A stretch of 64,000 bases of DNA, from assembly GCA_000632805.1 (NCBI GenBank), contig CP007444.1, forward strand, positions 4,142,772-4,206,771. Reading direction: 5' to 3'. The first letter of the stretch is position 1, and each line of letters opens with the position of its first letter. Both the position numbers and the translations under genes were made by a program. This stretch comes from Dyella jiangningensis. GTDB taxonomy: Bacteria; Pseudomonadota; Gammaproteobacteria; Xanthomonadales; Rhodanobacteraceae. Under the pieces are notes generated by a model. The model searched no databases and was not told the DNA's origin. It saw nothing but the letters and a program-made list of their open reading frames with translations. This document shows positions 35,252 to 47,469 of this stretch, piece by piece.

Positions 35252-36187
<936 letters not shown>

Positions 36188-36363: not shown

Positions 36364-37158
36364 TCAGCTTACGCGTCTGGCCATGCGCTGGTGGCCGATC
36401 AGCCGCGCCCAGCGCACGCCGATGTCGATCCACATCAGGTAGCCCGACTCGGTGAGCAGGCGGACCAGGTAGCGGCGGCTGAGTTCGAACGCCGGCTCAG
36501 CGGCGACGACGACGCTGTCGAATCCCAGGCGCCGCGCCAGCAGCTGGCAGCGCGCCAGGTGGTAGCGGCTGCTCACCAGCGCCACCGGCGGCAACACCTG
36601 CATCACCGGGCCGTCTTCCTGCAGCAGGCTGCGCGCGTGCCGCAGGTTCTCCAGCGAATCGATGGATGCCTGTTCAAGCTGCAGGACGATGCCGGGCGGC
36701 AGTTCGCGATCGGCCAGCCAGGCCCTGCCCGCAGCGGCCTCGCTGACGCTACCGCCACTGCGGCCACCGAGTAGCAGCACGTGGTCGGTCATGTCAGCGC
36801 GCATCAACGCCAGCGCCCGTCCGAGGCGCAGCTGGTAGTCCGTTTCGGGTTGGTCGCGCACCAGCCGGCGGCCGAACACGAGCACCGTCATCGGCCGTGA
36901 CAGGGTCAGCGGGCTGCGCGCCGCCACGTGCCACACGTGCAACAGATACCCGACCCAGACCAGACCCAGGCTCAACACCAGCGCCACCAGCACGACCGCA
37001 GCCGCATGCAACACATCGCCATCGCTCAGATAGCGCCAGGGGCCACGCTTGAGTGGAGCAACAGAGGACAAGACGGGCAGGGCAGGTGAGGGCTGGTAGA
37101 TAGGGCAGGTAGATAGGGCAGTGTGCGCAGCGGGCTCTTCCTGCGCAATCGGTTCCAT
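36364..37158 (-). CDS. DUF218 (YdcF/ElyC-type) membrane protein beside the pigment cluster
   Basis: Protein of 264 residues with a proline-rich N-terminal tail, one membrane helix (about 52-75, AAAVVLVALVLSLGLVWVGYLL) and a DUF218 domain: MTVLVFGRRLVRDQPETDYQLRLGRALAL, VLLLGGRSGGSVSEAAAGRAWL, SIDSLENLRHARSLL, VSSRYHLARCQLLARRLGF. ElyC/SanA-like proteins of this type affect envelope assembly. It is divergent from the ketosynthase gene with only 75 bp between, so promoter sharing is likely, and a role in handling the membrane pigment is possible but unproven. ATG at 37158; a TTG two codons earlier is less likely. Confidence 0.85.
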   Translation of the reverse strand: MEPIAQEEPAAHTALSTCPIYQPSPALPVLSSVAPLKRGPWRYLSDGDVLHAAAVVLVALVLSLGLVWVGYLLHVWHVAARSPLTLSRPMTVLVFGRRLVRDQPETDYQLRLGRALALMRADMTDHVLLLGGRSGGSVSEAAAGRAWLADRELPPGIVLQLEQASIDSLENLRHARSLLQEDGPVMQVLPPVALVSSRYHLARCQLLARRLGFDSVVVAAEPAFELSRRYLVRLLTESGYLMWIDIGVRWARLIGHQRMARRVS

Positions 37159-37233
37159 GGGCAAGATGAACGCCGCTTCGACCGTTCCCGCGGCGGGCTA
37201 GGCAATGCGCCGGGTGCTGGTTACGCTGGCGTG

Positions 37234-38433
37234 ATGCCAGTACCGATCCAACCCCTGGCCGTCAGCGCCTACACGGCTACTTCGGCGCTGGGCCACGGCT
37301 TAGAGAACCACCTTGTCGCCCTGTCCGCCACGCGCGGCGGCCTGCGCCCCAACGATTTCAGCAGCGCGCCCCTGGCGTGCTGGATCGGCCGTGTCGAAGG
37401 CGTCGAAGACGCCGCCCTGCCCGCCGCACATGCCGTATGGGAATGCCGCAACAACCGCCTGGCCTGGCTCGGCCTGAGGCAGGATGGCTTCCTGGAGCGG
37501 GCCCTGGACGTCCGCCAACGCTACGGCGCGGCGCGTGTCGCGCTGGTGCTCGGCACGTCCACCGCCAGCATCGGAGCCACCGAAGAGGCCTATCGGCGTC
37601 TCGACGACGAGGGCCGGATGCCGCCGGACCTGCGCCGCCCGCTGATCCACGCGCCCCACTCCCTCGCCGGTTTCGTCGCCGAAGCGCTGGGCCTGGAAGG
37701 CCCCTGCATCACCGTGTCCACCGCCTGCTCATCCAGTGCGAAGGTATTCGCCCATGCCGAGCGCCTGATCCGGCTTGGCCTGGCGGACGCGGCGGTGGTC
37801 GGCGGCGTGGACACCCTGTGCGACAGCGTGCTGTTCGGCTTCAACGCGCTGGAGCTGGTATCGCCCGAACCGTGCCGTCCGTTCGATCAGGCTCGCCGCG
37901 GCATCTCCATCGGCGAGGCCGCCGGCTTCGCGTTGCTGGAACGCACGGGCATGGCGCCTCAAGCGCCCCGGCTGCTCGGCTATGGCGAATCGAGCGACGC
38001 CCACCACATGTCGACGCCGCACCCGGAGGGCCTGGGCGCCGAGCTGGCGCTGCGCGATGCATTGGCGCGCGCCAACCTGCACGCAGACCAGGTCGATTAC
38101 ATCAACCTGCACGGCACGGCCAGCCTCAAGAACGATGAGGTGGAAGCGGCGCTGGTCACCCGCGCGTTTCCGACCACGACGCGAGCAAGCTCCACCAAGG
38201 GTTTCACCGGCCATACGCTCGGCGCGGCCGGCATTCTCGAAGCAGCGGTCGCACTGCAGGCGATCAAGCACGCAGTGGTGCCAGCTAACCTGGGCTGCAC
38301 CGCGCCCGATGCTGCATGCGGTCCTCAGTTCGCCTGGGAAATGGAGCAACGCAGCGTTGACGTGGCCGTCAGCAACTCGTTCGGCTTCGGCGGCAACAAT
38401 GCCTGCCTGGTCTTTGGACGAGCACCTGCATGA
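37234..38433 (+). CDS. Aryl polyene beta-ketoacyl-ACP synthase (KS)
   Basis: Chain-elongating ketosynthase of 399 residues, FabB/FabF type. The Cys-His-His triad is complete: Cys in TVSTACSSSAK near 167, His in NLHGTASLKNDEVEA near 292, and His in KGFTGHTLGAAG near 327. The C-terminal SNSFGFGGNNACLVFG glycine loop is also present. Together with the downstream chain-length factor it should extend an aryl starter with malonyl units (ApeO:ApeC-type pair). Start: ATG 37234, with a GTG one codon earlier. The stop overlaps the next gene by four bases. Confidence 0.92.
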   Translation: MPVPIQPLAVSAYTATSALGHGLENHLVALSATRGGLRPNDFSSAPLACWIGRVEGVEDAALPAAHAVWECRNNRLAWLGLRQDGFLERALDVRQRYGAARVALVLGTSTASIGATEEAYRRLDDEGRMPPDLRRPLIHAPHSLAGFVAEALGLEGPCITVSTACSSSAKVFAHAERLIRLGLADAAVVGGVDTLCDSVLFGFNALELVSPEPCRPFDQARRGISIGEAAGFALLERTGMAPQAPRLLGYGESSDAHHMSTPHPEGLGAELALRDALARANLHADQVDYINLHGTASLKNDEVEAALVTRAFPTTTRASSTKGFTGHTLGAAGILEAAVALQAIKHAVVPANLGCTAPDAACGPQFAWEMEQRSVDVAVSNSFGFGGNNACLVFGRAPA

Positions 38434-39227
38434 GCGCGCTACAGGTATACGTTGAGGGCATCGGCCTGTGGTCGGCGACGCTGGCGGACTTTGCCTCGCT
38501 GAAGGCCCAGGAGCGCGGCGAAACCGTCGTCCCTCCTCCCTCCAGGCCAGCCGCCACCACGCTGCCCGCCAACGAACGCCGACGCGCGCCGGAAAGCGTA
38601 CTGCTCGCCGTCGAAGTAGCCGGTCAGGCCGTGGCAATGAGCGGCCTTGCCGCCGCAGAGCTGCCATGCGTCTTCAGTTCGGCCTACGGCGATCAGCTGA
38701 TTTCCGATTACATGTGCACGACCCTGGCACACGCGCCAACCGAACTGTCGCCCACGCGTTTCCATAACTCGGTACACAACGCGCCCGCCGGCTACTGGAC
38801 GATCGCCACCGGTTGCCACGCGCCCTCGAGCGCGATCACCGCCGGCCACGCCAGTTTCGGTGCAGGCCTGCTCGAAGCGGCCACGCTGTGCGCCACCGAG
38901 CACCAGCCCGTGCTGCTGGTCTGCAGCGATATCGCTGGCCATGGACCGCTGGGCGAGATGAGTGGCACGCATACCTCGTTCGGCTGCGCGCTGGTGCTGT
39001 CGCCGCGGCAGGACGAACGCAGTCTTGCGCGGCTGGACCTCATGCTCGAGCCGCATGCGGGTTCCATGCTGCACCCCGCGCCGCGTACCGGTGCGTGGCA
39101 GGAAGCCAACCCGATGGCCTCGGCGGCGTGGCCGCTGATGCAGAATCTGGCTCGTGGCGACGGTGAGTGCACGGTAGCCGCCGCCGAAACGTTAGCCTTG
39201 CGCATTGTCATGGAGACCGCTGCTTGA
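38430..39227 (+). CDS. Beta-ketoacyl synthase-like chain-length factor
   Basis: A 265-residue partner of the ketosynthase. It matches the chain-length-factor group (Ketoacyl-synt_2; ApeC-like): YVEGIGLWSATL at the start, CVFSSAYGDQLISDYMCTTLA near 83, SPTRFHNSVHNAPAGYWTIATG near 110, and HASFGAGLLEA. The active-site Cys of true KS enzymes is absent in the expected place, so it should not condense by itself. It pairs with the upstream KS to set polyene length. ATG overlaps the KS stop. Confidence 0.88.
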   Translation: MSALQVYVEGIGLWSATLADFASLKAQERGETVVPPPSRPAATTLPANERRRAPESVLLAVEVAGQAVAMSGLAAAELPCVFSSAYGDQLISDYMCTTLAHAPTELSPTRFHNSVHNAPAGYWTIATGCHAPSSAITAGHASFGAGLLEAATLCATEHQPVLLVCSDIAGHGPLGEMSGTHTSFGCALVLSPRQDERSLARLDLMLEPHAGSMLHPAPRTGAWQEANPMASAAWPLMQNLARGDGECTVAAAETLALRIVMETAA

Positions 39228-39985
39228 ACACATCCGATGTCCGCTGGTGCGTGCTGATCCCCTGCCTCAACGAGGAGGCGGCGATTGGCGGCGTCGTGCA
39301 ATCGGTATTGGATCTGGGCGCGCCGGTCATCGTGGTCGATGACGGTTCCGACGATCGCACGCCCGACATCGTCGGTGCCCTGCCGGTAACGCTGCTGCGC
39401 CACGCGCAGCGCCGCGGCAAGGGAGAGGCTTTGCGCACGGGTTTTCGCGAGGCCCTGCGCCAGGGCTACGGCGCCGTGCTCACCATGGATGGCGACGGGC
39501 AACACCTTGCCAGCGACATCCCGCGCATCGTGGCGGCGGCGAAGCGGTATCCGAATCACATCGTGATCGGCGCGCGCCTGCTCGACCGCGAACAGCAACC
39601 CAAGGGCCGGCGTCGCGCCAACGCAGTGGCCGACTGGGGCATCTCGTGGGCCTGCGCCCAGCCCGTCGCCGATACGCAGAGCGGCCAGCGCTGGTATCCG
39701 CGCGCCGCGCTCGACCTGGTCGACCTGCCCGCGGAGAACTTCGTGTTCGAGGCGGCCATCCTCATTGCCGCCACGCGCGAGCGCGGACTGGACGTCGTAT
39801 CAGTACCGATCGCGTCGCGCTACCAGGGCGAGTTCCGCATCAGCCACTTCAGCCCGGTGCGCGACGTCACGCGCATCACCCTCTATACGGTCGGCCAGGT
39901 CTTTCGCCACGGCGATGTCATGGCGAGTTATCGCCGTTCGCGCGCTTCGCGGCCGATTGTGTTCGACGCCGCAGTGACAGGTTAA
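39224..39985 (+). CDS. Glycosyltransferase family 2
   Basis: Cytoplasmic or membrane-associated glycosyltransferase of 253 residues with the GT2 core: WCVLIPCLNEEAAIGGVVQSVL, VIVVDDGSDDRTPDIV, and the DxD-like TMDGDGQH near residue 88. ENFVFEAAILIAATRERG resembles the acceptor side of DPM1-type enzymes. In many aryl polyene clusters a glycosyltransferase-acyltransferase (ApeJ-type) attaches the polyene to a glycolipid anchor; here the GT is separate and the acyltransferase lies at 44-45 kb. Start is TTG at 39224 overlapping the previous stop (TTGA), the only start that avoids the upstream gene. Confidence 0.88.
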   Translation: MNTSDVRWCVLIPCLNEEAAIGGVVQSVLDLGAPVIVVDDGSDDRTPDIVGALPVTLLRHAQRRGKGEALRTGFREALRQGYGAVLTMDGDGQHLASDIPRIVAAAKRYPNHIVIGARLLDREQQPKGRRRANAVADWGISWACAQPVADTQSGQRWYPRAALDLVDLPAENFVFEAAILIAATRERGLDVVSVPIASRYQGEFRISHFSPVRDVTRITLYTVGQVFRHGDVMASYRRSRASRPIVFDAAVTG

Positions 39986-40010
39986 TCCGCGCGACACTTC
40001 GGCGGCTAGG

Positions 40011-40748
40011 CTACGCCATGCCGCCGTTGACGCCGATGACCTGACCGTTGATGTACCCGGCCGCATTTGAACACAGGAAGGCCACCAGCGCCGCCACTTC
40101 CTCGGGCTTGCCCGCGCGCTGCGCGGGAACGATCTCACGGATGCGTTCGGGTGGAAAATCCTCGCCGATCATGCGCCCTTCGATCACGCCGGGCGCGACC
40201 ACGTTGGCCGTGATGCCACGCGACGCCATTTCGCGCGCAAGCGAACGCGTAGCACCGTGCAGGGCCGACTTCGCCGCCGCGTAATTCGCCTGCCCGCGAT
40301 TGCCCAGCTGCGCGGCCACCGAGCTGACCGACACGATGCGACCAAAACGAGCGCGCGCCATGGGCAACAGCAGCGGCTGGGTGACGTGGAAGAAGCCATG
40401 CAGCGAGACGTCGATCACTCGTCGCCATGCGTCTTCCGAGAGACCTGCCAGCGGACCGTCGGCGTGCACGCCCGCGTTGTTGACCACGGCGTGGATGGTG
40501 CCATCGGCCAGCAAGGACTCGATCGCCTGGCGCGTGGCGTCGGCATCGGTGACGTCGAAGGCAACGGACTGCGCACTGCCACCCGCGTCGCGGATGGCAG
40601 CCGCGACGTCATCGGCACGTCCAAGTGATGCGTTCGCGTGCACGACCACGTGATAACCGCCTTGCGCCAGCGCCTGGCAGATGGCGCCGCCAAGATCGCC
40701 GCTGCCGCCCGTGACCAGGGCACGTCGTGAAGCATGGGCGTGCGACAT
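40011..40748 (-). CDS. 3-oxoacyl-ACP reductase (KR) of the polyene cluster
   Basis: Short-chain dehydrogenase of 245 residues, FabG/ApeQ-like, that reduces the beta-keto group after each elongation. NADPH-binding GGSGDLGGAI (14-23), NNAG near 91, catalytic Ser-Tyr-Lys in VSSVAAQLGNRGQANYAAAKSAL (about 139-161), and the C-terminal GQVIGVNGGMA are all present. It is the last gene of the minus-strand pigment operon. The plus-strand GT gene ends 25 bp away, so the two transcription units converge here. Confidence 0.93.
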   Translation of the reverse strand: MSHAHASRRALVTGGSGDLGGAICQALAQGGYHVVVHANASLGRADDVAAAIRDAGGSAQSVAFDVTDADATRQAIESLLADGTIHAVVNNAGVHADGPLAGLSEDAWRRVIDVSLHGFFHVTQPLLLPMARARFGRIVSVSSVAAQLGNRGQANYAAAKSALHGATRSLAREMASRGITANVVAPGVIEGRMIGEDFPPERIREIVPAQRAGKPEEVAALVAFLCSNAAGYINGQVIGVNGGMA

Positions 40749-40762
40749 GAATGACCTCGCTC

Positions 40763-41197
40763 TCAGGAACCGGAATGGATGACCGCCGCGCGACCGGATG
40801 CCAGCAGACGACCACGCTGCTCCACGCGAAACGCATACTGCGCCCCGGCGTCATCGGCGTACAGGCATTCGGCATGGACGTCCAGATGGCCGCCGGCGGC
40901 ATCGACATATTCCACCGCCAGCATCACGTCGCGAAGACTCACGAGCCGGCCTGGCCGCGCCTCGGTCACACCGCGCTCGCGCGCCCGCAATGCACCGTGC
41001 ACCGCCATGGCCTGCGCGCCGTATTCGGCCAGGTGCACCGCGTGCAAACCGTATTCGCCGCGCAACGGGTGATTGGCGTCCGCATGGCTCTCGCTGATCG
41101 CGTGGATGCTGACATCGTCCCATGCAAGCACGGCGTCGAGCAGGCACATGGTGCCCTGATGAGGAATGAGGTGCGCCCAGTCAGTCTTGGCGAGCAT
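40763..41197 (-). CDS. Hot-dog 3-hydroxyacyl-ACP dehydratase (ApeP-type)
   Basis: A 144-residue hot-dog protein. The start WAHLIPHQGTMCLLDAVLAWDD and the helix HLAEYGAQAMAVHGAL match the ApeP-type dehydratases of aryl polyene clusters, which form a heterodimer with the ApeI-type protein and remove water to give the conjugated double bond. The usual FabZ pattern with His on a HFPG turn is missing here and is instead found in the ApeI-type partner. It overlaps the exporter gene by 17 bases. Confidence 0.85.
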   Translation of the reverse strand: MLAKTDWAHLIPHQGTMCLLDAVLAWDDVSIHAISESHADANHPLRGEYGLHAVHLAEYGAQAMAVHGALRARERGVTEARPGRLVSLRDVMLAVEYVDAAGGHLDVHAECLYADDAGAQYAFRVEQRGRLLASGRAAVIHSGS

Positions 41198-43499
41198 GCG
41201 GAGCCATCAGGATCGAGAGACAGAAATGGAACGCCACGCCCAGGCTTACCGTGAGACCAATGGCGCGCAAGACCGGGATGGAGCTCCACGCCAGCAGGCC
41301 GAACACGAGTAGCGCAGACGCCACGCACACCAGCGTGGCGTGGAGCGTGCGCCGCTGTTCGGCGGCATCGCCGGTGTCGCGCTCAAAGAACAGCGCATAG
41401 TGCAGGCCCAGGCCGGCCGCGAGTATCAGCGCCACCAGATGGAACAGCGAGATTTCCACCCCTGCCGCACGCTCGACCGCCAGCACCAGGAATGTCGCCA
41501 GTGTCATCGGCGCCAGCACGTGCCATGCGCGACGCAGACTGCGCAGTGCCAAGGTGATCGCCACCACCAGCAGCAGCGTCGCTGCGAACAGCGCATGGAG
41601 GATGCGCGTTCGGTAGGAGACCACCATCGATTCGGCGGTCTCCTTGAGATCGAGCAGGCGCACTGCGCCGTGACCGTACTGAGCAAGCGTCTGCAGCGCA
41701 GCAACGTCGTGCACGCCGCTGAGCGTGCCCAGGCCGATCCAATGATCGCCGCGCGACATCAGCATCGCGGCGACGCGCTGGCCGAGCGGCGAAGCGGCAA
41801 AGTGCTCCTCGGTGAGCAACGGCAACGCGCGTGCCTTCTGCACGTCGTCCACGAACGGCGCGAACAGTCCCGCCTGGAACGGCATGCCTTGCCCGGCCGC
41901 GGCCAAGGCGCGCTCGAGCGTCGCACGATCCGGCAACCGCTGCTGGCGGGCACGCTGCAGGGCCTCGCTGGGCAGGTAGCGCGAAGGAAGCTCGATTGCA
42001 TCGACGGCGTGCCTGGCGACCAAGGCGTCCGCGGCGGGCTGCAGACGTTCGGACAAGGCGAGCACGCCTTGTTCGTCGCGCGCCTCCAGCACCAATAGAT
42101 AGCGCACGTCCGGCGCGCCCAACGCTTCGCGCAGGCGAGCGTCCTCACGCAGGAGGTCCCGCGGCAAGGGCGTCAGCGCCGAGAGGTCGTTCTGCCAGAA
42201 CGAACCACGCGCGAATACCAGCATCAGGATAGTGGCAGCGGCCACCAGCAAGGGAATCCAGCGCGGCCGCGGCAGGGCATCCGCCCAGCGTCGCGCGCGC
42301 ACCAGCCAGCCCATGTCCGCCACATCATGCACGCGCTCAGGCAGCAGATGCGGCAGCAGATAACGCGTGCTGAATCCCGCGACCAGCAGGCCGGTGATGG
42401 TAAACACCGCCAACTGCTTGAGACCGTTCACGCCGGATGCGTAGAAGGCCACGTAGGCAATGCAGGCCGATGCGATGGCGGTGAGCAGCAAAGGCCACAG
42501 GTCGCGCACGCTTTGGAGCGCGTTTTCACCGGCGCGCCGGTGACTGAGCACGCGAATCGGGTATTCCTGCGCGACACCAAGCAAGGTGAAACCGAAGGCG
42601 AGCGTAATGCCATGCACCTGCGGAAACAGCACGACCAGGGCCGCGATACCGGCGAGCGCCGCGCTGGCGATCGGCAGGGCCGACAACAGCAGCGAGCCGA
42701 CGCTGCGATAGGCCAGCAGCAACAACACGATGAAACCCACGGTGGAAATGCGGCCGATCCACTCGGCCTGCCCGCGCGTCTGCGCGTTGGCGATCACGCT
42801 GAAGTAACCCGGACCGCTGACCTGCAATGAAGCGCCGTCGTGCCCCGGCAGATGCTCGAATGCCTCGCGAATGCCGCTGATCGCCGTCGCCTGTGCATCG
42901 GGGTCGAAGCCCGCGGCATGCGTCTGCACGAGGAGCAACGCTTCGTTCTTCGGGGAGAACCACACGCCCTCGCGCACCTCGGGCGACTTCGGCGGCGTCC
43001 AGCGCTCGGCCAGCTTCAGCACTTCCAGCGTCGGGTCGCGTGGCAACAAGCCTTTCAGCAGGCCTGCAGCCGGGGAGGACAGATCCTCCAGCCGTTGTTC
43101 GAGTTCATCGCGAAGAAACGCTGCGTCCATCGCCTGCGCATCGAGCGTGGGCGACAACAGGTAGCGATACGGCAGCAACGACTCGTCGAGCGAGCCGATA
43201 TCGAAGCTGCCGTTGAGCACCTGGCTGTAGCGCGCATCTTTCCGCAACGACACGGCCAGTTGCTGGCTCAATGTCGCCAGCTGTTCGTCGGGCTTGCCGG
43301 CGATGGCGAGCAGCAGCAGGCGCGAACCGGGGCCTTCGCCTACCTGTTCCATCAACAGGCGCTGGTCCGGCGTGGTCGGCGCGGGCATGAAACTGCGCAG
43401 GTCGGTACTGACGCGCAGGCGTTGCGCGACAACCACGCCCAAAGCGGCAAGCGCCATGACCCACACCGCCAGCAGGATCCACCGACCGCGTGGCCGCAT
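41181..43499 (-). CDS. MMPL/RND family exporter of the polyene cluster
   Basis: Inner membrane exporter of 772 residues. It follows the RND/MMPL plan: one helix (about 8-26), a large periplasmic domain, five helices (about 230-400), another helix (about 418-436), a second periplasmic domain, and five helices (about 630-765). GLGLHYALFFERD and GVAQEYPIRVLSHRRAG are typical amphipathic loop signatures of this COG4258-type group (ApeM-like). It should pass the polyene lipid across the inner membrane to the LolA-like carrier. ATG at 43499; a longer GTG/ATG start at 43517 overlaps the LolA gene. Confidence 0.9.
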   Translation of the reverse strand: MRPRGRWILLAVWVMALAALGVVVAQRLRVSTDLRSFMPAPTTPDQRLLMEQVGEGPGSRLLLLAIAGKPDEQLATLSQQLAVSLRKDARYSQVLNGSFDIGSLDESLLPYRYLLSPTLDAQAMDAAFLRDELEQRLEDLSSPAAGLLKGLLPRDPTLEVLKLAERWTPPKSPEVREGVWFSPKNEALLLVQTHAAGFDPDAQATAISGIREAFEHLPGHDGASLQVSGPGYFSVIANAQTRGQAEWIGRISTVGFIVLLLLAYRSVGSLLLSALPIASAALAGIAALVVLFPQVHGITLAFGFTLLGVAQEYPIRVLSHRRAGENALQSVRDLWPLLLTAIASACIAYVAFYASGVNGLKQLAVFTITGLLVAGFSTRYLLPHLLPERVHDVADMGWLVRARRWADALPRPRWIPLLVAAATILMLVFARGSFWQNDLSALTPLPRDLLREDARLREALGAPDVRYLLVLEARDEQGVLALSERLQPAADALVARHAVDAIELPSRYLPSEALQRARQQRLPDRATLERALAAAGQGMPFQAGLFAPFVDDVQKARALPLLTEEHFAASPLGQRVAAMLMSRGDHWIGLGTLSGVHDVAALQTLAQYGHGAVRLLDLKETAESMVVSYRTRILHALFAATLLLVVAITLALRSLRRAWHVLAPMTLATFLVLAVERAAGVEISLFHLVALILAAGLGLHYALFFERDTGDAAEQRRTLHATLVCVASALLVFGLLAWSSIPVLRAIGLTVSLGVAFHFCLSILMAPHARQD

Positions 43500-43501
43500 G
43501 C

Positions 43502-44149
43502 CTAGCTGCCCCGGCAAAGCGCGGCGAGCGCGTCGCGGGTGGGCGTCGCCGGCATCTTCGCGGCAAGGTTGCCCAGCAGATCGACCGCGAGGTCACCATC
43601 GGCCTCCTGCATGCGCATGCAACGCGGCTCGTTGCCGGCGCCGTCGATCTCGATGCGGCTGACCGTGCGCACGAGCTTGGGATCGCGCGGCGTGAGCGTG
43701 AGCGTCCAACGCCGCGCATCGTCGCCGCTGTACTGGATGGCGAAGGCCTGCTCCAGGCGCGTGGCGTCACCGCCGAGCATGGCGACGAAGCTGTCGAGCA
43801 GGATCTGCAGCTGCGGTGCGCGCTTTAGCGAGAAACGGCGCGGGTCACGTCCCTCGCGCTCCTGGCTCACTTCACCGTCGGCGATCGTCGAAACCTCGCG
43901 ATTGGGATGCTCCACGCGTCGCTCGAGGCGGTCTCCGCCCAGCCACGCCAATTCGCCGGATACGACCAAGGGCTGGTCCAGCATCTTCATGAAGCGCGCT
44001 TCGGCAAACGGCGTGCGCGCGGGTGCAGGACGGCCCAACGAGGCCACCAGTGCGCGCGCAGTTGCGGCTTCCTCAGGCGCCGACGCGTTCGCGCACAGCG
44101 ACAGCGTCAGGCCGCACAGCAGTAGCCACGTCTTGCTGCCAGAAATCAT
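43502..44149 (-). CDS. LolA-like periplasmic carrier of the polyene cluster
   Basis: Exported protein of 215 residues with a signal peptide (SKTWLLLCGLTLSLCANA). The mature part is a LolA-type half-barrel: FAEARFMKMLDQPLVVSGELAWLGGDRLERRVEHPNREVSTIADGEV (in parts) and LDSFVAMLGGDATRLEQAF. In aryl polyene clusters this ApeL-like protein is thought to shuttle the polyene lipid to the outer membrane. Its first 77 bases overlap the end of the acyltransferase gene in another frame, while two bases separate it from the exporter gene. Confidence 0.85.
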   Translation of the reverse strand: MISGSKTWLLLCGLTLSLCANASAPEEAATARALVASLGRPAPARTPFAEARFMKMLDQPLVVSGELAWLGGDRLERRVEHPNREVSTIADGEVSQEREGRDPRRFSLKRAPQLQILLDSFVAMLGGDATRLEQAFAIQYSGDDARRWTLTLTPRDPKLVRTVSRIEIDGAGNEPRCMRMQEADGDLAVDLLGNLAAKMPATPTRDALAALCRGS

Positions 44150-45026
44150 AGAAGTTGAACCAGTTGTAGGGAGCTACGTGCACGTAGTGTTCCACGCGGC
44201 CAGCGTAGCGGGCTATCCAGGCGTCCAGCGCATTGGCGCGATCCTGGCGCGGGATGTCCACCCGATCGGCGAAGTGTTCGAAGATCAGGCGGTAACGATT
44301 GCCGCCTTCGTACAGGCCAAAGCACAACATCACCGGCACGCGCAGCGAGTGGGCGACCAGCCACGGCCCGATGGGGAACGGTGCCGGCTCGCCGAGGAAG
44401 GGCGTGCGGCGCAGCACTTCATGCTCGCGTCCGCGATCGGCCAGCAACGCCACCATCGCGCCCTTGTCGCAGGCCTCGGCCATGGCGAGCGTGATCGAGG
44501 CACCGCCGAGCGACGCGTCGATCACGTTGGCGCCGATGTCCGGCGCGAGCGCCTCCAGCAGCTCCGTCATGTCCGGCGTCTTCTGCTTGTCCAGCACCAC
44601 GCGCAGCGGAATGTCGGGACGGCGCAGGCTGAGCGCGCGAAGCGCCTCGAAGCTGCCCTGGTGCGAACCCATCAGCAGCAGACCGCGACCTTTCGCCAAG
44701 GTGGACTCGAGTTCGTCCAGGCCTTCCACCGCGATATCGAAACCCTTCTCGCCGCGCGCGAGCAGGAAGATGCGATCGAGCGTGATGGCGGCGAAGGCAT
44801 GAAGGTGCTTCATCACCTGCCACGCGCTCACCGGCTTGCCCAGCACGCGTTCGAGAAAGCTGCGCGACGCTTCGCGCTCGGGCCGGCGACGGCAGTAGAA
44901 ATACAGCGTGATCGGATAGAGGACCAGGCGAGCGAGCGGCCGTCCTCCATGCAGCGCCACCGTGCGGATCAACCACAGGGCGAAGCGTCCGCCGCCCTCG
45001 GGGCGGCTCTGCCAGTGTTCGCTCAT
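44073..45026 (-). CDS. Lauroyl-type lysophospholipid acyltransferase of the polyene cluster
   Basis: Membrane acyltransferase of 317 residues in the LpxL/HtrB-like group. HX4D-type active site is in GLLLMGSHQGSFEALRAL near residue 120. LVLDKQKTPDMTELLEALAPDIGANVI and RTPFLGEPAPFPIGPWLVAHSL follow, and the AYNWFNF-type end (APYNWFNFYDFWQQD) is characteristic of aryl polyene cluster members. It probably acylates the polyene or its glycolipid anchor. I use the ATG at 45026 with a four-base overlap to the ApeI-type gene; the C-terminal 25 codons run into the LolA gene. Confidence 0.88.
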   Translation of the reverse strand: MSEHWQSRPEGGGRFALWLIRTVALHGGRPLARLVLYPITLYFYCRRRPEREASRSFLERVLGKPVSAWQVMKHLHAFAAITLDRIFLLARGEKGFDIAVEGLDELESTLAKGRGLLLMGSHQGSFEALRALSLRRPDIPLRVVLDKQKTPDMTELLEALAPDIGANVIDASLGGASITLAMAEACDKGAMVALLADRGREHEVLRRTPFLGEPAPFPIGPWLVAHSLRVPVMLCFGLYEGGNRYRLIFEHFADRVDIPRQDRANALDAWIARYAGRVEHYVHVAPYNWFNFYDFWQQDVATAVRPDAVAVRERVGA

Positions 45027-45322
45027 GCCGCGCCCTCGACGGTGCCGCGCGCGAGCAGTTCCGCGTCGCGCCGGATCTCGAAGCGCACGCGGCCGTTGAT
45101 GTCCGTCAGCGTGAGCTGTGCGTGCTGCTGTGGCAGCAGCGGGGCCATGAACTTGGCATCCTGCACGCGCGCCAGACGCTCGCCGCGCCAAGCCTGCAAG
45201 GCCAGCGCGACCTGTTCCAGCAGCATGACGCCGGGCACCAGAGGCGAGCCCGGAAAATGCCCGGGCAGGCTCGGATGATCGGCCGGCACCAGAAATTCGC
45301 GATGAAACGCGGCGTGGCTCAT
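45023..45322 (-). CDS. FabA/FabZ-like dehydratase (ApeI-type)
   Basis: Short hot-dog dehydratase of 99 residues. HPSLPGHFPGSPLVPGVMLLEQVALALQAW (about 17-45) is the FabZ-type motif with the catalytic His in HFPG, and the KFMAPLLPQQHAQLTLTD segment is typical of ApeI. It would pair with the ApeP-type protein to make an active dehydratase. ATG at 45322 overlaps the membrane-protein gene, and the stop overlaps the acyltransferase start by four bases. Confidence 0.88.
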   Translation of the reverse strand: MSHAAFHREFLVPADHPSLPGHFPGSPLVPGVMLLEQVALALQAWRGERLARVQDAKFMAPLLPQQHAQLTLTDINGRVRFEIRRDAELLARGTVEGAA

Positions 45323-46071
45323 GGCGATGCCGGATCCTGGCCACGCACCAGTTGCGGCCAGCGCGCCGCGACGCCGAGAGCCAGCTCGTGCAGGCGCGGA
45401 TGGGTGAGATGGCGCAGATGCCAACGGCGATAGACGTGTTCGAGCAGGAAGGCGGCCGCGATCACCGCATAGCCGCCGACATGCACATAGGTCTGCGCCC
45501 ATTCGGCCGGTATCCGCCATGGCGAGGCGATGCCCAGCGAGGCCAACAGTCCGCCCGGCTCGGCGCAGAGCAACAGGACGGCGAGTAGGGTGGCTTGAGT
45601 CGTCGCCAACAATGTCCAGAACCAGGTCAGCTGGCGCGCATACCGCATCAGGCCGGGCATCTGTAGGCGCTCGGGCCCTTCCACCGCCTCGATGAACCGC
45701 GCGATCAACGGCGTCGAACCGATGCGGAGGCTGCGCCCGAACACCGAGGCGACCAGCACGTTGATGGCGATGGGCACGCACGCCAGCAGCATCCCCACGT
45801 AGCCGCGCATCCACAGCCAACCCATCGCGCAGGACGTCAGCGTCCAGACCACCCACGCGCCGAGGCGGCGCGCCGCCAGGGCCGGCGCCATCAGCAAGGT
45901 GAGCAGAAGCGCGCACGCGGCGAGCGAAAAGCCCTGTCGGTGCGTGAGCACGCCAGCCATCGCCAGCACCGGGTAGCCAAGCATCAGCGGCAGCCAGCGC
46001 CGCGACGAGGACTTCGATGGAATGGCGGGAGCCGGGGACATGCGTGATGGGGCCTGTTCGCTGGACGTCAT
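45319..46071 (-). CDS. Membrane protein of the polyene cluster (ApeG-like)
   Basis: Integral membrane protein of 250 residues with six to seven hydrophobic segments (about 30-42, 48-68, 72-90, 93-112, 150-172, 195-215). It resembles the COG4648 group found only in aryl polyene clusters (WLPLMLGYPVLAMAG, RIGSTPLIARFIEAVEGPERLQMPGLMRYARQLTWFW). Function is not established. Overlaps the ApeI-type gene by four bases and lies 50 bp after the ACP gene. Confidence 0.85.
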   Translation of the reverse strand: MTSSEQAPSRMSPAPAIPSKSSSRRWLPLMLGYPVLAMAGVLTHRQGFSLAACALLLTLLMAPALAARRLGAWVVWTLTSCAMGWLWMRGYVGMLLACVPIAINVLVASVFGRSLRIGSTPLIARFIEAVEGPERLQMPGLMRYARQLTWFWTLLATTQATLLAVLLLCAEPGGLLASLGIASPWRIPAEWAQTYVHVGGYAVIAAAFLLEHVYRRWHLRHLTHPRLHELALGVAARWPQLVRGQDPASP

Positions 46072-46121
46072 GGCGACGGCACCAGTGTGCCGCGCGACGA
46101 TGACATCATGCCCGACGGCGG

Positions 46122-46391
46122 TTAAACGGCGCGGTGCCGTTCGACATGCTCGGAAAGCATGCGCAGGCTGGAAAAGATCTGGCGGTTTTCCGGATTGTCC
46201 GAGCGCAACTGGAAGCCGTAGCGCTTGGACACGGCCAGCGCGATCTCCAGCGCGTCGATGGAATCGAGGCCCAGATCGCCGCCGAACAGGGGGGCATCAG
46301 GGTCGATCTGCTCGGCTGACACGGTCTCCAGGTTGAGGCTTTCCACGATCAATGTGGCCAGTTCGTGTTGTGCGGTGCTCTGCTCGACCAT
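46122..46391 (-). CDS. Acyl carrier protein of the polyene cluster
   Basis: A 89-residue acyl carrier protein. The phosphopantetheine serine is in GLDSIDALEIA near residue 43, in the standard DSL-like context (DSI), and the acidic helix-II face is intact. It is the first gene of the minus-strand operon. Typical clusters have two carrier proteins (ApeE, ApeF); I see only this one. Divergent from the xanB2-type gene with a short shared promoter region. Confidence 0.92.
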   Translation of the reverse strand: MVEQSTAQHELATLIVESLNLETVSAEQIDPDAPLFGGDLGLDSIDALEIALAVSKRYGFQLRSDNPENRQIFSSLRMLSEHVERHRAV

Positions 46392-46482
46392 GCCCGATTC
46401 CGTACCCTTTCAAGCGCCTCTCCCCCGGAGGCGGCGACCGGCGAGTGTAACATAGCGACCCCGATTGCCCGGCTTGTTTCCC
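46392..46482. promoter_or_regulatory. Divergent promoter region between ACP and xanB2-type genes
   Basis: A 91-bp gap. The stretch TGTAACATAG (46446-46455) in GC-rich surroundings offers -10-like hexamers in both directions (TAACAT plus, TATGTT minus). A small hairpin CGCCTC/GAGGCG lies near 46417-46435. Both pigment units could be controlled here together. Confidence 0.5.
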
Positions 46483-47469
46483 ATGGTTCAGGGTTGTGAA
46501 AACGTCAAGCCTGCGCTGCGCCGCGCGCCGCAGGTGTCCTATCGCCACGACAAACCCGAGGCCGTGCTGGGCGAGCCCGGCACGCTGGCGGTGTTCGGGT
46601 TTGGCACCGGCGCCGCCCGCAGCGAGGATCCGCGCTGGCTGGGCGTGGATCTGGAAGGCATCGACGCTCCGGTGCCGGTCGAGATCTGGCAGGTGGCCGG
46701 CACGGTCAGTCAGGGGCGCGAGGGAGACGTCCAATGGTCGGCTGGCGATGGCTGGCTGTTCGCGGCGATCACGCTGGACGAGAACAACCATGGCGGCCCC
46801 CGCGATACCGCGCACGAGGCGTACGGGCAGCTGTGCCGCTTCGTAGCCGGGCGCCGCGAGCGGCACGTGCAACGCATCTGGAACTACCTGAGCGACATCA
46901 ACGAGGGCGAAGGTGACGCCGAGCGCTACAAGCTGTTCTGCGATGGACGCGCCACCGGCATGGGCTCGTTCTTCGCCGAAGGCTTTCCGGCGGCCACGGC
47001 CATCGGGCACCACGCGAGCGCACCGCGCCTGCAGATCTACCTGCTCGCCTGCGACGAGGCGGGCCTGCGTGTTGAAAACCCCCGCCAGGTCAGCGCCTGG
47101 CGCTACCCGCGCCAATACGGCCGCACGCCACCCAGCTTTGCCCGCGCCATGATGCTGCCGGCCGGCGACGCGCTGGCGATCTCGGGTACGGCCGCCGTGG
47201 TCGGACATGCCTCTGCGCATGAGGACGATCTCCTGGCCCAGCTGGGCGAGACGCTGACCAACCTGGAAACACTGCTGCACAGCGCCGGCATGACGGCGGG
47301 CTTCGATACGCAATCGCCGCTCAAGGCCTATGTTCGCCAGCCTACCGATGCGCCGGTCGTGCGCGATTTCCTGCAGCAGCGCCTGCCCGGCGTGCCGGTC
47401 TTGCTGTTGCACGGCGACATCTGTCGCCAGGAACTACTGGTGGAAATCGACGGCTGGCGCTACGCCTGA
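46483..47469 (+). CDS. xanB2: XanB2-like bifunctional chorismatase (hydroxybenzoate synthase)
   Basis: Protein of 328 residues in the FkbO/Hyg5/XanB2 chorismatase family. These enzymes turn chorismate into 3-hydroxybenzoate (pigment starter) and, in XanB2, also 4-hydroxybenzoate (ubiquinone precursor). Recognisable segments are VFGFGTGAARSEDPRWLGVDLEG, AYGQLCRFVAGRRERHVQRIWNYLSDINEGEGDAERYKLFCDGR (in parts), and the RidA-like C-terminal half with LAISGTAAVVGHASAHEDDLLAQ. ATG at 46483 chosen; TTG at 46465 opens the frame but is unlikely. It sits divergent from the ACP gene, in line with a pigment role. Confidence 0.9.
   Translation: MVQGCENVKPALRRAPQVSYRHDKPEAVLGEPGTLAVFGFGTGAARSEDPRWLGVDLEGIDAPVPVEIWQVAGTVSQGREGDVQWSAGDGWLFAAITLDENNHGGPRDTAHEAYGQLCRFVAGRRERHVQRIWNYLSDINEGEGDAERYKLFCDGRATGMGSFFAEGFPAATAIGHHASAPRLQIYLLACDEAGLRVENPRQVSAWRYPRQYGRTPPSFARAMMLPAGDALAISGTAAVVGHASAHEDDLLAQLGETLTNLETLLHSAGMTAGFDTQSPLKAYVRQPTDAPVVRDFLQQRLPGVPVLLLHGDICRQELLVEIDGWRYA

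Follow-up and report, generated by a model that had tools for sequence, protein, structure and literature searches.

A probable xanthomonadin-type aryl polyene locus in Dyella jiangningensis and a candidate starter ligase encoded outside it

Knockouts have been published for the yellow-pigment locus ORF5-ORF17 of Lysobacter enzymogenes OH11, whose pigment is reported to absorb at 430 and 453 nm (PMC3691225). Mutants in its ketosynthase (KS), acyl carrier protein (ACP), ketoreductase (KR) and chain-length factor (CLF)-like genes are pigmentless and the LolA-like mutant is still pigmented; loss of the XanB2 homologue lowers pigment by ~90%, a defect restored by 3-hydroxybenzoate (3-HBA), and white mutants show greater sensitivity to light and peroxide (PMC3691225). 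ORF10 of that locus had acyl-CoA synthetases as its first hit, yet was assigned to lipoprotein carriers (PMC3691225). In Azoarcus, an in-cluster ligase, ArcT, acts on 3-HBA, and Xanthomonas XanB2 is reported to supply 4-hydroxybenzoate (4-HBA) for ubiquinone (PMC3949708). A xanthomonadin cluster has been suggested in silico for Luteibacter flocculans (PMC9965599), and antiSMASH has called arylpolyene clusters in Luteibacter mycovicinus, where the cluster is xanthomonadin I-like (PMC11165876), and in Dyella terrae (PMC9169046). Here, we describe a probable twelve-gene pigment locus of Dyella jiangningensis, at positions 37234-47469 of a 64,000-nucleotide stretch of its chromosome (contig CP007444.1, positions 4,142,772 to 4,206,771; the window), together with a candidate ligase encoded elsewhere on the same chromosome.

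We consider it highly probable (about 0.93) that this is an ordinary xanthomonadin-type aryl polyene (yellow pigment) locus of a Dyella-like genome, with the pathway proposed below. A preliminary description of this DNA had arrived at an aryl polyene, xanthomonadin-like cluster, and this reading is supported by gene types and order that agree with the L. enzymogenes locus (PMC3691225) and by gene types that agree with those of the arc genes of Azoarcus and of the Xanthomonas set (PMC3949708). The locus carries a KS with an adjacent CLF-like partner corresponding to a KS N-terminal half, a XanB2-type chorismatase within the cluster, a KR with two dehydratases (the first just under its Pfam cut-off) and a dedicated ACP, and an acyltransferase, a GT2 glycosyltransferase, an MMPL exporter and a LolA carrier. 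Three KS residues, Cys165, His293 and His327, which we take to be catalytic, are invariant in an alignment of 56 sequences, as is the ACP serine among 48. The set is not a chance assembly: we surveyed 49 related loci, of which 31 span the stretch between the KS gene and glmU or its preceding gene (in the other 18, the contig or flank ends too early), and matches to all twelve genes were found in 21 of the 31 spanning loci, although a match does not prove an intact gene. The pigment locus is also present in other Dyella and in Rhodanobacter and Frateuria; among the relatives found, the CLF most like that of the window is in Dyella sp. EPa41 (90%), with Dyella amyloliquefaciens next (86%) and further members of the three genera after them. 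What is seen directly is the genes, their order and conservation, the catalytic-type residues and the co-occurrence of an unlinked ligase.

By sequence, the KS and CLF are nearest to the solved pair 6qsp chains A/B, presumably the aryl-polyene pair ApeO:ApeC. This supports an aryl polyene product, and it would also suit an E. coli-type Ape cluster, whose aryl polyene begins with a different starter and which has a thioesterase and a ligase of its own; the enzyme classes are shared with Ape, and the dehydratases are ApeP/ApeI-like. However, the E. coli gene list includes a methyltransferase, two ACPs, three KS genes, a thioesterase, a LolB-like protein and a ligase (PMC8253772), whereas the twelve genes here comprise one ACP, one KS with its CLF, and XanB2, with no methyltransferase, thioesterase or ligase match, so that an Ape cluster is extremely improbable. 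In the genomes we sampled, weak ligase matches close to weak CLF matches form a group apart, which looks like such E. coli-type clusters. We also considered a flexirubin or a dialkylresorcinol-polyene hybrid (arcuflavin-like) product in place of a plain xanthomonadin-type lipid, given that glycosyltransferase, LolA, acyltransferase and exporter genes occur in flexirubin clusters too (PMC3949708). With the flexirubin models FlxB and LolA2, the KR reaches 240 bits (cut-off 340) and the LolA protein 20.6 bits (cut-off 125), respectively; neither passes. No gene of the DarA/DarB type is present among the twelve genes, to which that search was confined, and the starter enzyme is XanB2-type (as it is in Azoarcus). 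We regard this product as very improbable and retain the xanthomonadin-type lipid.

In the proposed pathway, the XanB2-type enzyme would convert chorismate to 3-HBA (and probably to 4-HBA for ubiquinone), and an AMP-forming ligase whose gene lies beyond the window would load 3-HBA onto the cluster ACP. The KS and its CLF-like partner would elongate this starter with malonyl units, each round yielding one double bond through the KR and the two dehydratases. The GT2 and acyltransferase would then join the polyene to a lipid, and the MMPL exporter and LolA carrier would bring the polyene lipid to the outer membrane, where it could act as a shield against light and oxidants. The reactions, like the product, its lipid anchor and its role, are all inferred; the pigment, its outer-membrane location and its protective function are suggested by analogy with relatives. 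The XanB2-type enzyme may, as in Xanthomonas, also supply 4-HBA for ubiquinone, because a search of the window's genome gave no UbiC match (the E. coli control was positive).

We found no match to PF00501 (AMP-forming ligase) anywhere in the window, and hence no in-cluster 3-HBA:ACP ligase of the XanA2 or ArcT type; XanA2 is, we assume, part of the Xanthomonas cluster. Without a starter ligase, the pathway encoded by the locus would not be complete by itself. We do not hold such a ligase to be defining for xanthomonadin-type loci, given that neither a ligase nor a halogenase is listed for the L. enzymogenes locus in the available part of its report, which does not address how a locus of this kind starts its polyene (PMC3691225). 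The whole genome contains ten PF00501 matches, among them a 473-amino-acid frame at G000:C1:4252978-4254396 (G000:C1 being the window's chromosome), whose start is 72 kb from that of the CLF gene. Its Pfam AMP-binding match covers residues 158-328, its C-terminal domain match is below the cut-off, and it sits behind dprA-topA-Sua5 on the same strand. The nine other matches, six in frames of 632-959 aa and three in frames of 2205-2434 aa, were set aside on length and full-length profile match only.

We sampled the order evenly, taking 121 genomes with the window's own among them and counting as strong a ligase relative with E<1e-60 (next score 1e-28) and a CLF relative with E<1e-25 (next best 5e-19). 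A strong ligase relative was present in 40 genomes and a strong CLF relative in 38, and every one of these 38 also had the ligase; the ligase-only genomes were G060 and the fragmentary G055. Because all strong-CLF genomes carry it, the topA-side ligase is the best candidate for the missing starter loader. It was present in all 11 genomes behind the individually named loci (in one with a stop inside the match), and its Lys463 and TSGSTG loop, which we take to be catalytic, were invariant in all 11 aligned sequences.

The position of the ligase differs among the families distinguished by our tool, of which f1 is taken as Rhodanobacteraceae, the window's family (all distances start to start). Of the 16 f1 genomes, 15 have the ligase either at a distance of at least 27 kb from the CLF or on a different contig, and one (G110) has it at 12 kb. 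In f2, f8, f10 and f11, it lies 5.8-28 kb from the CLF in 16 of 17 genomes. Seven non-f1 loci (from f2, f4, f8, f10 and f11), selected for closeness of ligase and CLF, were read closely: in three (L052, L055, L057) the ligase stands between cluster genes, adjoining the ACP, and in four (L051, L053, L056, L058) it lies beyond XanB2 at the cluster edge, up to ~4 kb from it. In the four f1 neighborhoods examined (the window's own, L054, L059 and L060), it follows dprA, topA and Sua5. L060 (G060:C1:2679000-2694000) carries this ligase beside Sua5/topA/dprA with only a weak CLF match, making it an orphan. The simplest reading is that the candidate is a putative 3-HBA:ACP ligase, located outside the cluster in the window's family.

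Several observations weigh against the pathway as we propose it. The pathway is proposed from genes, and the dehydratase matches (PF22817, PF07977) are weak. The ligase is also away from the CLF outside the window's family, being on another contig in three of three f3 genomes and in one f8 genome and 631 kb away in one of two f4 genomes (11 kb in the other). The Fisher's p value for co-occurrence of ligase and CLF, 2e-29, is overstated, the species being related, and the first pass scored at most 13 candidates per genome, so that relatives may be missed. The ligase of the window's family may serve some other purpose, because its neighbors dprA, topA and Sua5 are not pathway genes and G060 keeps the ligase with a weak CLF. 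Finally, the window's CLF has leucine at column 153 and alanine at column 145 of our alignment, and thus no glutamine at either candidate column for Q166 of Lysobacter ORF16, a residue stated to be common to all homologues and whose change in Q166A abolished pigment (PMC3691225). The candidate columns were placed by spacing: the S120-to-Q166 spacing (46) fits S107 of the window and column 153, with column 145 as the alternative. The alignment has 79 rows (the window, 77 loci and a stretch of 6qsp_B), or 78 distinct rows, L061 being identical to L018. Glutamine stands at column 153 in 41 distinct rows, at column 145 in 6 and at neither in 35; 6qsp_B has leucine at column 153 and glutamine at column 145. 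Given these 35 rows, the glutamine is not universal in the CLF family, provided that either candidate column is correct.

Ten of the 31 spanning loci are without at least one cluster gene. Eight (Dyella, Rhodanobacter and Frateuria) have lost the KR together with the membrane protein: both are gone in L008, L010, L034, L038, L041 and L047, L035 is also without MMPL and LolA, and L044 is without those four genes and XanB2. The KR alone is gone in L007 and L050. In whole-genome searches of 14 chosen genomes, the membrane protein had no match in 10, and the cluster KR had no match above 47% identity in 12; the residual matches at or below 47% are taken to be housekeeping FabG proteins. The joint loss suggests that FabG can stand in for the KR, or that the pigment has been lost in those species, Dyella marensis and D. 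halodurans among them. Two KR sites deserve separate mention. In L003 (D. amyloliquefaciens; G122:C12:19765-20103), the KR match covers only residues 1-113 and has one internal stop, and this copy may be broken or mis-sequenced. At the place of the KR in L007 (11638-12198, minus strand), there is a 186-aa frame that by eye is not a short-chain dehydrogenase/reductase. We put forward tentatively, as a proposal we find somewhat doubtful, that the family's ligase is fixed in the dprA-topA-Sua5 row, with initiation run alongside housekeeping genes, and that some members drop the KR and membrane protein and borrow FabG. If so, two parts that Lysobacter needs, the reported CLF glutamine and the KR of the cluster, would be dispensable to the pathway.

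The genes are listed in Table 1. The coordinates given in the preliminary description hold, and its converging units are borne out, the plus unit 37234-39985 with KS, CLF-like and GT2 genes and the minus unit 46391-40011 with ACP, membrane protein, two dehydratase, acyltransferase, LolA, MMPL and KR genes; the two stops are 25 bases apart. All twelve named genes are open frames with the named kinds of domain in Pfam or NCBIfam, the membrane protein having no family match. Most frames stand as first drawn; those of the acyltransferase and the second dehydratase do not and are better given by the shorter frames in Table 1, the longer ones looking like spurious extensions. The GT2 frame opens before the CLF frame has ended, and its true start may be further on. 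An NCBIfam scan gave no match for the ApeP-like dehydratase, and for the membrane protein neither Pfam nor NCBIfam gave a match and a PDB profile search was empty up to E 1. The XanB2-type gene is divergent from the ACP gene; its product scores 183 bits on TIGR04444 (named FkbO/Hyg5), below the cut-off of 325, and its class was set by homology.

Table 1. Genes of the pigment locus and the flanking DUF218 gene (window coordinates)
Feature	Coordinates	Strand	Match
DUF218 protein, flanking, divergent from KS gene; pathway membership unproven	36364..37164	-	PF02698 E 2e-16
Ketosynthase (KS)	37234..38433	+	NF006618 500 bits (cut-off 407); 6qsp_A E 2e-67
CLF-like partner, KS N-terminal half only	38430..39227	+	PF13723 E 3e-24; 6qsp_B E 4e-9
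GT2 glycosyltransferase, polyprenyl-phosphate sugar transferase-like	39167..39985	+	PF00535 E 6e-24
FabG-like ketoreductase (KR)	40011..40748	-	NF004200 322 bits (cut-off 273)
ApeP-like dehydratase	40763..41197	-	PF22817 E 2e-5, 24.4 bits, just below gathering score 27
MMPL/RND exporter	41181..43517	-	PF03176 E 3e-10
LolA-like periplasmic carrier; N-terminus signal-peptide-like by eye	43502..44149	-	PF19574 E 3e-38
Lipid A-type acyltransferase	44073..45026	-	PF03279 E 1e-9, scored on longer frame, within part kept here
FabA/ApeI-like dehydratase, 99 aa	45023..45322	-	PF07977 E 1.5e-5, 25.1 bits (cut-off 23)
Membrane protein, function unassigned by family; three hydrophobic stretches (hydropathy)	45319..46071	-	
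Acyl carrier protein (ACP), Ser44 in LGLDSIDA	46122..46391	-	PF00550 E 4e-9; NF006617 133 bits (cut-off 70)
XanB2-type chorismatase, hydroxybenzoate-making by homology	46465..47469	+	PF21168 E 6e-33; 5ag3 E 1e-37

The twelve genes are flanked by hemF (35252-36157, on the KS side) and the DUF218 gene, and at the other end by the gene preceding glmU. The range given in the preliminary description opens with the DUF218 gene, left unnamed there; it was matched in 32 of the 49 related loci. Promoter and terminator scans gave 0 promoter-like sites versus a mean of 1.0 in shuffles and 3 terminator-like sites versus 6.1, which is no excess. The window lies on a one-contig record of 5.4 Mb whose end repeats its start (first/last ~345 kb), with two match pairs at the equal offset of 5,052,004 and two compared stretches identical (3001/3001 and 4988/4988 bases). 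This is probably an untrimmed circular assembly with a true size near 5.05 Mb, which would account for the contamination figure of 8.39. Elsewhere on this record, G000:C1:2376457-2388761 holds three long frames (2205-2434 aa) with AMP-binding matches and is probably a nonribosomal peptide synthetase locus.

Compared with L. enzymogenes OH11, the locus has in matching order the XanB2-type, ACP, hypothetical protein, dehydratase, acyltransferase, LolA, exporter, dehydratase, KR, glycosyltransferase-type ORF15, CLF-like and KS genes, a likeness of gene types and order; ORF1-4 (a regulator, exporters and an outer membrane protein) and ORF14 are found in Lysobacter only (PMC3691225). With the arc (arcuflavin) genes of Azoarcus sp. 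BH72, it shares the XanB2-type ArcB, the KS/CLF-like pair, KR, dehydratases, glycosyltransferase, acyltransferase, LolA, exporter and ACP, whereas Azoarcus also has the ligase ArcT inside one of its two arc loci, a halogenase and a dar locus (PMC3949708). The Xanthomonas xan/pig cluster has in common with it the XanB2 chorismatase and type II enzymes (PMC3949708, PMC3691225). A halogenase gene is present in the Xanthomonas clusters of two species (PMC3691225), whereas the sole PF04820 (halogenase) match in the window's genome is far from the cluster (G000:C1:1581278-1582672). The window provides one more Dyella-like genome with xanthomonadin-type genes, in a group that already has software-named clusters in Luteibacter and Dyella terrae. 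This kind of cluster is already known, and our additions, an unlinked ligase and relatives with reduced clusters, are modest; what is useful is a testable account of how the polyene is started in this branch, where the cluster has no ligase of its own.

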